A stretch of 47,644 nucleotides of DNA from Lentisphaerota bacterium (GTDB taxonomy: Bacteria > Verrucomicrobiota > Lentisphaeria > Victivallales > UBA1829): the NCBI GenBank assembly GCA_015061915.1, contig SUVR01000015.1:1-47644 (forward strand), given 5' to 3'. Within the stretch, counting starts at the first letter, position 1. The number at the start of each line of letters is the position of its first letter. The notes beneath the pieces were generated by a model. That model was not told where the DNA came from, made no database searches, and saw nothing but the letters and a program-made list of their open reading frames with translations. Made by a program: the position numbers and the translations under genes. This document shows, piece after piece, positions 10,368 through 14,295 of this stretch.

Positions 10368-10389
10368 TAAAAAAAACGTTTTTTTCTTC

Positions 10390-10417
10390 TTGATTTTTCT
10401 GTGGGAAGGGATACTTT
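10390..10417 (+). promoter_or_regulatory. Predicted promoter of the SecD-like lipoprotein gene
   Basis: TTGATT (10390-10395) and TACTTT (10412-10417) are 16 bp apart. The predicted transcript starts just before the ribosome binding site AGAAAGG of the gene at 10446. Confidence 0.4.
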
Positions 10418-10445
10418 TAGTAAAAAACGAAGAAAGGTATCGACA

Positions 10446-11057
10446 ATGAAAAAAATTTTTCTGCGCCTGGTGCTGCTTCCAGCATTAGCGTTCTGTGCAT
10501 TTTTGTGTCAGTCTTGCAACGGATTCGGTAAAAAAAATGTAAAACCGATGAAACTGGAATTCCGTCTTGCTTATCCGGATTACTGCGGAATGAGCTGCAT
10601 TCTTGTGGATATTGATAATGCTTATGAAGCTCATAACAAGGCAAATCCGGAAAACAAAGTTGCGAAGGATGACTTCTACAAGAATGTTTACCGTCCGGCG
10701 CACCCGGAACTGGCAGAATATGATCTGCTTTACACCATTGACGACGCTGGCAGACGCAACTACGACCTGATCTCCACCAAAGTGGAAATGACCGGAGGTA
10801 TCAAAAAAGCCAGTGTCGATAGGACTTTCTTCGGTCAGCTTGAAATTCAGCTTGAATTCAACAGCGAAGGCGCGAAACAGTTCGGCAAGATCACCACGGA
10901 CAATGTAGGTAAACGCCTCGGGATCGTGCTGGATGGTCAGCTTTATGCCGCTCCGAATCTGAATGAACCCATCCTCGGCGGCAGAGCCCAGATCACCGGT
11001 AATTTTACGGAAGAAGAAGCGGAAGAGCTCGCCGCAGGTCTGACTGCCGGCAAATGA
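10446..11057 (+). CDS. Lipoprotein carrying a partial copy of the SecD periplasmic (P1) domain
   Basis: A 203-residue protein starting at ATG 10446 (MKKIFLRLVLLPALAFCAFL), preceded by AGAAAGG; the earlier in-frame ATG at 10401 lacks a good site. A hydrophobic signal ends in CQSC, a loose lipobox, so it is probably lipid-anchored. The remainder, from KLEFRLAYPDY to the stop, aligns end to end with residues about 200-368 of the SecDF encoded just downstream; roughly two thirds of residues match by eye, and stretches such as LGGRAQITGNF and NYDLISTKVEMTG are identical. It lacks the first half of P1 and every membrane helix, and stops where SecD enters its second helix. DNA identity runs to 30 bases or more. 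It appears to be a duplicated domain given a new signal. Function is unknown; interaction with, or competition against, SecDF is only an inference. Confidence 0.85.
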   Translation: MKKIFLRLVLLPALAFCAFLCQSCNGFGKKNVKPMKLEFRLAYPDYCGMSCILVDIDNAYEAHNKANPENKVAKDDFYKNVYRPAHPELAEYDLLYTIDDAGRRNYDLISTKVEMTGGIKKASVDRTFFGQLEIQLEFNSEGAKQFGKITTDNVGKRLGIVLDGQLYAAPNLNEPILGGRAQITGNFTEEEAEELAAGLTAGK

Positions 11058-11140
11058 TTCATTCCGTCATAAACATTGACTCATTCTGTTATCGAAAGGC
11101 GGGAGGGGCTTCTTTTTTTAAAGAAAAAGTGTTTCTGCAC

Positions 11141-11168
11141 TTGTTATCGGGGATTTTGGGTGTATATT
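11141..11168 (+). promoter_or_regulatory. Predicted promoter of yajC-secDF
   Basis: TTGTTA (11141-11146) and TATATT (11163-11168) are 16 bp apart, with TGTATATT matching other likely promoters in the window. The leader to yajC would be about 60 nt. Position 11058-11140 shows no terminator, so read-through from the lipoprotein gene is possible. Confidence 0.45.
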
Positions 11169-11236
11169 GTGCAGTTACCGTTTTTGACGTATATTAAACT
11201 AAATATAAAAGAAACACAAGTTAAGGAGAAAAGAAG

Positions 11237-11680
11237 ATGAGCGCAAGTTTTACTCTCTTTGTCGCTGATGCCGCACAGGCACCTGCAACCGCAACCCAGA
11301 ATGTCGCCGCCGCTGCTGCTGAAGTCAAAGCCCAGGCGACCACAGAACAGCCTGCCAATCCGGAAGCTGCCGCACAGGAAGAACCCGGTTTCTTCAGCGG
11401 TGTCATGGGTATGCTGCCGATGATCCTGATCATCGTTGTGATGTTCTACCTGATGTACCGCGGTCAGAAGAAAGAACAGAAGCGCCGTCAGGAAATGATC
11501 ACCGCCATCAAGAAAGGCGATAAAGTTGTGACCATCGGCGGTATCCACGGCACGATCTTTGAAGTGAAGGAAGACATTTTTGTGATCACGATCGCCCCCA
11601 ACACGAACATTGAAATCGGCAAGGCGGCAATCGGCTCCATCGTTCCCGCAACCACCACCATTGAGGCTGCCCAGAAATGA
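11237..11680 (+). CDS. yajC: Preprotein translocase accessory subunit YajC
   Basis: A 147-residue inner-membrane protein. An Ala/Gln-rich N-terminal segment (1-50) is followed by one membrane helix (about 56-76, MLPMILIIVVMFYLMYRGQ) and the cytoplasmic YajC domain (77-135) with KKEQKRRQEMI and the conserved GDKVVTIGGIHGTI. YajC is usually about 110 residues; the extra length is in the N-terminal extension. It associates with SecDF and the SecYEG holo-translocon. The ATG at 11237 has AAGGAGAA upstream. Its stop overlaps the start of secDF by four bases (ATGA), indicating translational coupling. Confidence 0.95.
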   Translation: MSASFTLFVADAAQAPATATQNVAAAAAEVKAQATTEQPANPEAAAQEEPGFFSGVMGMLPMILIIVVMFYLMYRGQKKEQKRRQEMITAIKKGDKVVTIGGIHGTIFEVKEDIFVITIAPNTNIEIGKAAIGSIVPATTTIEAAQK

Positions 11681-14295
11681 AAACTCCCTTCCTCCTCCGT
11701 TCTCTCTTCGCCGTAGCGGTGGTGGCGGTCTTTGTCTGGAGTATGTTCCCCATGACCCAGACAGACTTTTACGACACCTTCCGCTCCATCTCCAAGGATG
11801 CAGATGATCCGGAACTTGTTGCCCTGATCGATGATGCAAAGGAAAAGCAGAAAGCCGACATCAAGGAATATCCGTACCCCTCCAAGGCGATCGATGCAGC
11901 CGCTAACGACAAGGGCGGCGTGGAACTCAAGAAGTTCCTGCCGGAAAATGTGCTCAAGAACAGCAAGATCAAAACCAATGCCGACGTGATCTCCATGATC
12001 CGTAAGCGTTCCGCCGGTGCTATGCATTTGGGGATCGACCTGAACGGCGGTGCGGAATTTATGCTGGAGCTGACCCCGGTCGGCGAAGATGCGGAAAAAG
12101 ATTTTGAAAAGTTCCGTGACAACGCCATCGAAACGATCCGGAAACGTCTGGAAGCCCAGAACTATCTGGAATGTGAAATCGCACCCGCCGGCGGCAAGCT
12201 GATCTCCGTCCGCGTCCCAACCATCAGCGATGATGAAAAGGCGAAACTGGAACAGCTGATCCTCCGCAGTGCCAAACTGGAATTCCGTCTTGCCTATCCC
12301 GATTACAACGAGCTGGGCAGAATCCTCAACGATATTGATGTGGCGCACGAAGCGTACAATGCGGAAAATCCGGGCAAACTGCTGACCAAAGAGAAATTCT
12401 ACGCAGAAGTTTACCGTCCCGCCCACGCCAATCTGGCAGACTACGATCTGCTTTATACGCTGGAAGACAACGGCAAGCGCAACTACGATCTGATCTCCAC
12501 CAAGGTGGAAATGACCGGCAGCGGCGTGAAGAATGCCATGGTCGGTTACACGCAGTTCGGTCAGCGCGAAATCCAGCTTGAATTCAACGGAGAAGGTGCA
12601 AACCAGTTCGGCAAGATCACCACAGCCAATGTGGGCAAACGCCTCGGTATTGTGCTGGACGGGCAGCTTTACTCCGCTCCGAACCTGAACGAACCGATCC
12701 TCGGCGGCAGAGCCCAGATCACCGGTAACTTCTCCGAAGATGAAGCCAAAGGCGTTGCCGATGCTCTTGTCAGCGGCTCCATGCCTTTTGACATCACCGT
12801 GGTCTCCCGCGCGGACATCGACCCGACGGTTGGTTCCGACACCATCCAGAAGAGTATCTGGTCCGGCATCATCGGTACGATCCTCGTGATGATCTTCATG
12901 ATCATCTACTACCGTCTTGCCGGTGTGATCGCCAATATCTCTCTGGTGGTCAACGCGTTTGTCATGCTGGGCGCCATTGCCGCCTTTGACGTGACCCTGA
13001 CTCTGCCGGGTATTGCCGGTATTGTTCTGACCATCGGTATGGCAGTTGATGCCAACGTTCTGATCTACGAACGAATCCGCGAAGAACTGAACAACGGCAA
13101 GTCTCTTGCCAATGCAGTGAACATCGGTTTCAGCAACGCGTTCTCCGCAATTTTCGACTCCAACATGACAACGCTCTTTGTTGCCCTCATCCTGTTCTGG
13201 CAGGGTTCCGGCGCCATCAAGAGTTTTGCCATTACGCTGGCGATCGGTATTTTCACCACGCTGTTCACCGCAGTGTTCCTGACCCGCCTGCTCTTTGACC
13301 TGATGCTCAAGATCTGCGGCAACCGCCTCAAGACTCTTTCCATGATGCAGTTCTGCAAAAATCCGAAGATCAACTTCCTGAGCCTCAAGAAATACACGAT
13401 CCTGCTTTCTGCGGTTCTGGTCATCGGTTCTCTGATTCTGATCGGCGTCAAAAACAAAGACATCCTCGGTATCGACTTCACCGGTGGTTCGCAGCTGCTT
13501 GTTTCTTACGAAGCAAAGACTGAAAATGCCCAGCGGATCGAAGTTGCAAAGATCGAACAGTATCTCAAAGAGAACGGCTACAACGCACGTGCCAGTTACA
13601 AAACGACCGAAGAAGGAACGGAACAGTTGGAGATCGTGCTGCGCGGCGAAGTGGACAAGGATACCGGCGCCAAGATCATTGAAGATATGGACAAGGCATA
13701 CCCGGATGTGAAGTTTGACATCAAAGCCCAGAACGAACTCGGTGCCCTGATCGGTGCAGAATTCACCAAGTCCGCGATCATCGCACTGGTGCTGGCAATG
13801 ATCGGCATGATCATCTATATGATCATCCGCTTCCAGTTCTCCTACTCCATTGCAGCAAACGTGGCTCTGATCCACGACGTGATCATTTCTCTGGGCATCT
13901 ACCTGGCGTTCGGCGGACAGCTCACGCTGCAGGTCGTTGCCAGCTTGCTGACCCTGATCGGTTACTCGGTCAACGACACGATCGTGACCTTTGACCGTCA
14001 GCGTGAAAACCTGACTCTCATGCGCGGTGCGTCCTACAAGGATATCGTGAACACCAGTATCAACCAGACGCTGGGCAGAACGATCCTGACCTCCACCTCC
14101 GTGCTGCTGATCCTCATTGCCCAGCTCATCTGGGGCGGGGACGGGATCAAGGACTTCATCAGCGTGATGCTTATCGGCTGTATTGTGGGCTGCTACTCCT
14201 CCATCTTCATCTCCCCGACCATCACCGCTTACTGGCACAAGCGTGAGCGGAATGTTTCGGAAGCAGATCAGACGGCGGAAAACACCAACAACTGA
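11677..14295 (+). CDS. secDF: Fused protein translocase subunit SecDF
   Basis: An 872-residue fusion of SecD and SecF, proton-driven inner-membrane factors that assist release of exported proteins. The first helix is at about 5-23, followed by the large periplasmic P1 domain (about 25-370), which includes the block copied in the upstream lipoprotein, ending with LGGRAQITGNF. Membrane helices follow, with the SecD signature GMAVDANVLIYERIREE (Asp about 458, in proton transfer). SecF begins near residue 556 (MMQFCKNPKINFLSLKKY), carries a smaller periplasmic domain with IDFTGGSQLLVSY, and the motif YSVNDTIVTFDRQRE. SecDF fusion is known in several phyla. The gene starts on the yajC stop codon and ends before a clear terminator. 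Confidence 0.95.
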   Translation: MKTPFLLRSLFAVAVVAVFVWSMFPMTQTDFYDTFRSISKDADDPELVALIDDAKEKQKADIKEYPYPSKAIDAAANDKGGVELKKFLPENVLKNSKIKTNADVISMIRKRSAGAMHLGIDLNGGAEFMLELTPVGEDAEKDFEKFRDNAIETIRKRLEAQNYLECEIAPAGGKLISVRVPTISDDEKAKLEQLILRSAKLEFRLAYPDYNELGRILNDIDVAHEAYNAENPGKLLTKEKFYAEVYRPAHANLADYDLLYTLEDNGKRNYDLISTKVEMTGSGVKNAMVGYTQFGQREIQLEFNGEGANQFGKITTANVGKRLGIVLDGQLYSAPNLNEPILGGRAQITGNFSEDEAKGVADALVSGSMPFDITVVSRADIDPTVGSDTIQKSIWSGIIGTILVMIFMIIYYRLAGVIANISLVVNAFVMLGAIAAFDVTLTLPGIAGIVLTIGMAVDANVLIYERIREELNNGKSLANAVNIGFSNAFSAIFDSNMTTLFVALILFWQGSGAIKSFAITLAIGIFTTLFTAVFLTRLLFDLMLKICGNRLKTLSMMQFCKNPKINFLSLKKYTILLSAVLVIGSLILIGVKNKDILGIDFTGGSQLLVSYEAKTENAQRIEVAKIEQYLKENGYNARASYKTTEEGTEQLEIVLRGEVDKDTGAKIIEDMDKAYPDVKFDIKAQNELGALIGAEFTKSAIIALVLAMIGMIIYMIIRFQFSYSIAANVALIHDVIISLGIYLAFGGQLTLQVVASLLTLIGYSVNDTIVTFDRQRENLTLMRGASYKDIVNTSINQTLGRTILTSTSVLLILIAQLIWGGDGIKDFISVMLIGCIVGCYSSIFISPTITAYWHKRERNVSEADQTAENTNN

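Follow-up and report, generated by a model that had tools for sequence, protein, structure and literature searches.

What is a gene for one piece of SecD doing on its own in front of yajC and secDF? This question is raised by the window, by which we mean the whole stretch of 47,644 nucleotides that was analysed, from a gut-dwelling member of the Lentisphaeria. The product of the gene is a domain derived from SecD rather than a SecD itself, and we refer to it as the free head, after the P1 head of SecD.

The free-head gene and its product

The relevant features, in order along the window, are:

10390..10417, + strand: possible promoter, TTGATT-16-TACTTT (weak; seen by eye, and not reported by the consensus scan)
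10430..10437, + strand: ribosome-binding site AAGAAAGG, about 8 nt 5' of the ATG (read from the sequence; also present in the sister species, L033)
10446-11057, + strand: free-head ORF, intact, 203 codons plus stop, 203-aa product
10446..10517, + strand: export signal MKKIFLRLVLLPALAFCAFLCQSC, with possible lipidation at Cys24 in a non-canonical lipobox, C-Q-S-C
10518..10541, + strand: linker NGFGKKNV, 8 residues (pLDDT is low as far as residue 26)
10542..11054, + strand: copy of the SecD P1-head domain, residues 33-203 (from sequence, Pfam and predicted fold)
11055..11057, + strand: stop codon TGA; the end of the copy faces SecDF residue 368
11141..11168, + strand: promoter-like site before yajC, TTGTTA-16-TATATT (consensus scan; chance level similar)
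11237..11680, + strand: yajC (PF02699, E=1.5e-25)
11677..14295, + strand: secDF, fused, 872 aa (profile matches), 0.6 kb downstream of the free head
12265..12780, + strand: parental P1-head segment within secDF (sequence match to the free head)

The reading frame is uninterrupted and the start signals are in place, as the preliminary description had it. Along 173 aa that align with residues 196-368 of the downstream SecDF, the protein has 69% identity (E=3e-79), and it matches the SecDF_P1_head family PF22599 with 92.7 bits (E=1.9e-26; residues 107-202, profile positions 13-110 of 114), above the curated cut-off of 27 bits. With TIGR01129, the SecD equivalog, it scores 71.8 bits, which is below the cut-off of 244.4 and leaves it outside that family, and a hydrophobicity scan found no hydrophobic segment beyond residue 27. 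The conserved LGGRAQITG motif, to which attention had already been drawn, is intact, and of 30 columns conserved to 90% or more among SecD heads the free head retains 27; two of its three deviations sit near the C-terminus, where the P1-base context is lost. The domain also has a genus-specific insert in common with the SecDF of the same genome. By sequence, the free head is a near-complete SecD head and derives from the SecDF of its own genus.

A P1-head fold is confidently predicted. The AlphaFold2 model (35 SecD-head sequences) has a mean pLDDT of 85.6, with ten-residue blocks between residues 31 and 200 averaging 87-97 and only residues 1-26 modelled poorly. It superimposes on residues 106-248 of Thermus thermophilus SecDF (3aqo_C) with Z 16.7 and an rmsd of 2.0 over 120 residues; in the comparison with the PDB no non-SecDF fold was prominent, and unrelated folds scored Z 4 or less. 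The match to 106-248 indicates that the copy comprises the P1 head plus the lead-in LEFRL strand. At its other end, the free head runs out at the counterpart of SecDF residue 368, short of SecDF's second hydrophobic stretch, which starts at about residue 392; missing from the copy is therefore the final part of the P1 base, MPFDITVVSRADIDPTVGSDTIQK. The gene is therefore a copy of part of SecD P1, as had been proposed, but the part is the head subdomain rather than a segment that reaches TM2; the copy does not end exactly at the second helix, but about 23 residues short of it.

Residues 1-24 are positively charged and hydrophobic, as fits an export signal, and the sister-species copy keeps both a good export signal and the Ser-Cys pair. 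The protein is probably exported and tethered. Since both elements are present, lipidation is possible; the C-Q-S-C lipobox, with a Cys at -3, fails the canonical PROSITE PS51257-type pattern. The lipid anchor proposed earlier is therefore only probable, depending as it does on a non-canonical lipobox.

A search of the window genome for the source of the signal peptide gave matches at chance level only, and a plasmid collection searched with the free head returned only SecD-type or unannotated places, the best of which covered less than half of the query. The palindrome AAAAAACGTTTTTT at 10371 has two genomic sites, which equals the control count. GC3 is 0.52 in the free-head gene as against 0.71, which hints at modest expression. 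Downstream, the promoter-like site at 11141..11168 means that yajC-secDF could have its own transcript, so that transcription separate from the free head is suggested, but only suggested. RNA folding of 11020-11300 gave a z of -0.35, a value for the whole stretch that is compatible with local pairing near the ribosome-binding site.

Divergence and selection

In a 69-codon core outside a variable patch, the free head and the parental segment differ with dS 0.59-1.02 and dN 0.035-0.049, corresponding to an omega of 0.05-0.06. Constraint between the paralogues is looser elsewhere, with omega 0.20-0.31 in the 5' half and 0.29-0.62 in the last 16 codons. When neutral evolution was simulated, the frame stayed open in 1-9% of the runs and mean identity dropped to 37-65%; the observed free head has no stop and is 70-73% identical to SecDF. 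Judged by these substitution patterns, the core is under strong purifying selection and the gene is no dead duplicate, with a dN/dS far from the value near 1 that had been named as the sign of a chance duplication. The long near-identical blocks of the preliminary description exist at the protein level, in the 3' half; at the DNA level, the synonymous sites have diverged strongly (dS 0.6-1.0).

Between the two species of the genus, the free-head gene has an omega of 0.49, a weak figure because it rests on only 29 changes, about half of them in one patch; SecDF, with 0.09, is under tighter constraint than this value from few sites would indicate for the free head. The interspecies dS is 0.08 for the free-head gene (about 0.04 outside one patch) versus 0.25 for SecDF, and the 3' intergenic region of the free head is 98% identical. 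We considered constraint at the nucleotide level as the reason for this low divergence and set it aside, since the entire locus shows patchy divergence (0-26% per 100 nt) and recombination is the simpler reading. Within secDF itself, the comparison with the sister species (L033) gives 20-26% divergence at 13376-13575 and about 1% at 13976-14275, which likewise suggests recombination. One local DNA tract suggests sequence exchange between the free head and SecDF: in a 23-codon patch (aa 113-135), the sister-species copy is SecDF-like, possibly by gene conversion with SecDF, the alternative being that it has retained the ancestral state.

Occurrence in the genus and family

The sister species, a MAG from water deer cecum, has the gene intact at the identical position and with 93% identity, so both genus genomes examined carry a free head. 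Orthologues in close relatives had been proposed as a check, and the sole other genus member examined thus supplies one; presence in two independent assemblies makes an assembly artefact unlikely. Frame, start signals and motif had been said to argue for function, and selection together with the second species now favours function, the role itself being what we infer below.

Across the family, free heads above the Pfam cut-off occur in five of 36 genomes (G000, G001, G005, G015 and G021), so most members manage without one. G005 encodes, upstream of yajC-secDF and in the same position as in the window, a diverged head that has a signal peptide; in nine further genomes of the family whose upstream sequence is long enough, no free head is found there. 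The G005 head may be an old orthologue, in which case SecDF sequence would later have replaced that of the window copy, or it may have arisen by a separate duplication. Diverged free P1 heads are also found in two species of another genus of the family, g8 (L082:1633-2193 and L083:1846-2352), with no yajC within the stretch examined.

An apparent TAG sense codon in a related genome

In the course of these comparisons, G005, which belongs to the same family as the window genome, was seen apparently to use TAG as a sense codon (L081, G005:C72:20000-26000; L087-L106, on other G005 contigs). In-frame TAG occurs within the conserved genes yajC, secDF, secY, lepA, prfB and nrdD, several times in some genes (three in pheT, three in a sigma factor, two in dapA), and on nearly all G005 contigs sampled. 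When TAG is read as sense across 222 kb, ORFs average 399 aa instead of 339 aa and contain 86 internal TAG; the mean is 344 aa for TAA as sense and 386 aa, with 420 internal codons, for TGA as sense. About 98 in-frame TAG codons were counted in the 222 kb. Release factor RF1 (TIGR00019) is present in 11 of 12 relatives and was not found in G005 (78% complete) or G001 (72% complete).

The codon is probably read as Gln. At the TAG column of yajC, relatives mostly have Gln, Glu or Ala, and the residues aligned to G005 TAG are mostly Q, E, K, D and R, which fits Gln but is no proof. No CUA anticodon occurs among the tRNAs detected in G005; tRNA-Gln was found with both CUG and UUG anticodons. According to a 2021 screen, the bacterial stop reassignments known at that time all concern UGA, and UAG is not listed among them (PMC8629427).

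Recurrence across Verrucomicrobiota and beyond

Our survey of the phylum covered 240 Verrucomicrobiota genomes, 239 of which have a SecDF-type head. About 18 of the 240 also have an above-cut-off head in a frame that lacks the SecD membrane part; 23 genomes were inspected for such free heads, nearly all of them with extra matches. Most of these proteins begin with a signal or have just one hydrophobic segment, and many are encoded away from sec genes. Canonical lipoboxes are found in seven free heads, three of which are at or below the Pfam cut-off. In two further genomes, G005 and G178, the head lies directly upstream of yajC-secDF; in G178, from a distant family, a TM-anchored free P1, yajC and secDF are ordered as in the window (L044:3963-5643, - strand).

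A quick tree joins the window gene to its own SecDF (100), L045_free to the SecDF of G240 (95), L063_free and L048_free to the SecDF of their respective families (94 and 91), and L044_free to the SecDF of G178; being built on a single domain with long branches, it is only moderately reliable, and short branches underlie the window-gene, L044 and L045 joins. From such groupings, free heads appear to have been born separately at least five times, and their recurrence across the phylum speaks against the free head as a one-off accident.

Three individual proteins deserve mention. G246, a genome of the same order, encodes a lipoprotein in which Sel1 and TPR repeats accompany a P1 head (L063:1706-3277, - strand). 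Two chance finds come from outside the phylum. One, from the Acidobacteria, has a signal-like N-terminus and carries two P1-head repeats in tandem (L039:6001-6684); the other, from Marinifilum (Bacteroidota), is a lipoprotein-like protein in which a SecD P1-like region occurs without a membrane domain (L038:5167-6273). A free P1-type protein is thus not unique to the window genome: many Verrucomicrobiota genomes, one Bacteroidota record and one Acidobacteria record have such proteins.

Possible roles

In SecDF, the P1 head is reported to hold the substrate-binding cavity and to contact PpiD (PMC11470409), and proton-driven movement of the head has been proposed to pull the chain (PMC11470409, PMC9508474). 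With neither P1 base nor TM motor, the free head cannot pull. We tentatively favour a model in which it is a membrane-tethered, unenergised accessory that binds the emerging polypeptide near the translocon. A coding segment for the SecD P1 head would have been copied behind an export signal, giving rise to a functional paralogue. Its product would cross the inner membrane and stay tethered by its N-terminus, through a lipid or an uncleaved anchor, and would bind substrates passively, independently of protons, close to the exit of SecYEG-SecDF-YajC. It could hold emerging chains at this site or hand them on, as an extra SecD gripping subdomain or a helper of the PpiD/YfgM type, and it might additionally contact SecDF. 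The neighbourhood is no proof of a joint role, because tandem duplication can place a copy beside its parent, and a tandemly duplicated segment that included yajC and the beginning of secD could be enough to yield the order head-yajC-secDF.

It is rather unlikely that the free head instead binds ligands in the periplasm or at the outer membrane, in a job outside Sec for which its fold was reused, for example with hydrophobic peptides or lipids as ligands. The location of many free heads in the phylum away from sec genes, the Sel1 and TPR repeats of L063 and the seven canonical lipoboxes would suit an envelope role of this kind; the window copy, however, adjoins yajC-secDF and keeps nearly all conserved SecD-head columns, and the head-yajC-secDF order returns in two more genomes. 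The broader form of the accessory model, a recurrent translocon accessory in which tethered, motor-uncoupled SecD heads were invented at least five times in one phylum, and two to three times before yajC-secDF, is unlikely as well. A competitive modulator that would bind substrate or a SecD partner surface and so limit SecDF activity seems improbable: the head core is near-identical to SecDF and the motor domain is absent, as expected of a decoy, but the changes in the free head cluster in the 5' half and the C-terminal tail.

A recent chance duplication without function is very improbable; the narrow distribution and the interspecies omega, with its few sites, could be taken that way, but the core omega of 0.05-0.06 at a dS of 0.6-1.0 contradicts and largely excludes it, and the frame is intact in two species. 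Hardly credible is a translation-arrest secretion monitor of the SecM, VemP or ApdA type controlling yajC-secDF. A signal-bearing ORF of about 200 aa directly 5' of secDF does lie where monitors of this kind are found (PMC7897499, PMC10987492), but the free head is predicted to be folded, is under selection, ends in AAGLTAGK with no RAPP-like, SecM, VemP or MifM motif (as given in those two papers), and is followed by intergenic RNA of unremarkable overall structure and a promoter-like site ahead of yajC.

Comparison with known systems

We found no paper describing stand-alone P1-head proteins in the open-licence literature, in agreement with the earlier statement that no protein of this type is known in the translocon. 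The domain itself is already known, and its free, tethered form is a variant, and a recurrent one. How the P1 head handles the emerging chain, and whether binding by the head helps without proton-driven movement, is debated. Natural free heads, selected and re-created repeatedly, separate head binding from the motor and so bear on whether the head alone aids secretion.

Among the closest known counterparts is the SecDF P1 head of Thermus thermophilus (3AQO, 3AQP, 5YHF), which the free head resembles in fold, in its boundaries (106-248) and in the conserved core LDG..Y.AP....I.GG.A.I.G. Unlike SecDF, the free head is a separate, exported protein that lacks the P1 base, the TM helices and the proton pathway, and it has the genus-specific insert. 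With VemP, ApdA and ApdP it has in common a signal-bearing ORF upstream of secDF; it differs from them in having a folded, selected domain, no arrest motif and intergenic RNA that is not, overall, unusually structured. The likeness to PpiD/YfgM is only proposed, as a membrane-anchored periplasmic factor at the SecY exit, and we do not claim a relation in sequence. Within the phylum, L045 (G240), L044 (G178), L063 (G246), L055 (G168) and L051 (G114) are likewise exported or tethered heads without the SecD motor, and several of them were clearly copied from their own SecDF, as in the window. They differ from the window copy in having independent origins, some with a whole P1 or with added TPR/Sel1 repeats, and several with canonical lipoboxes.
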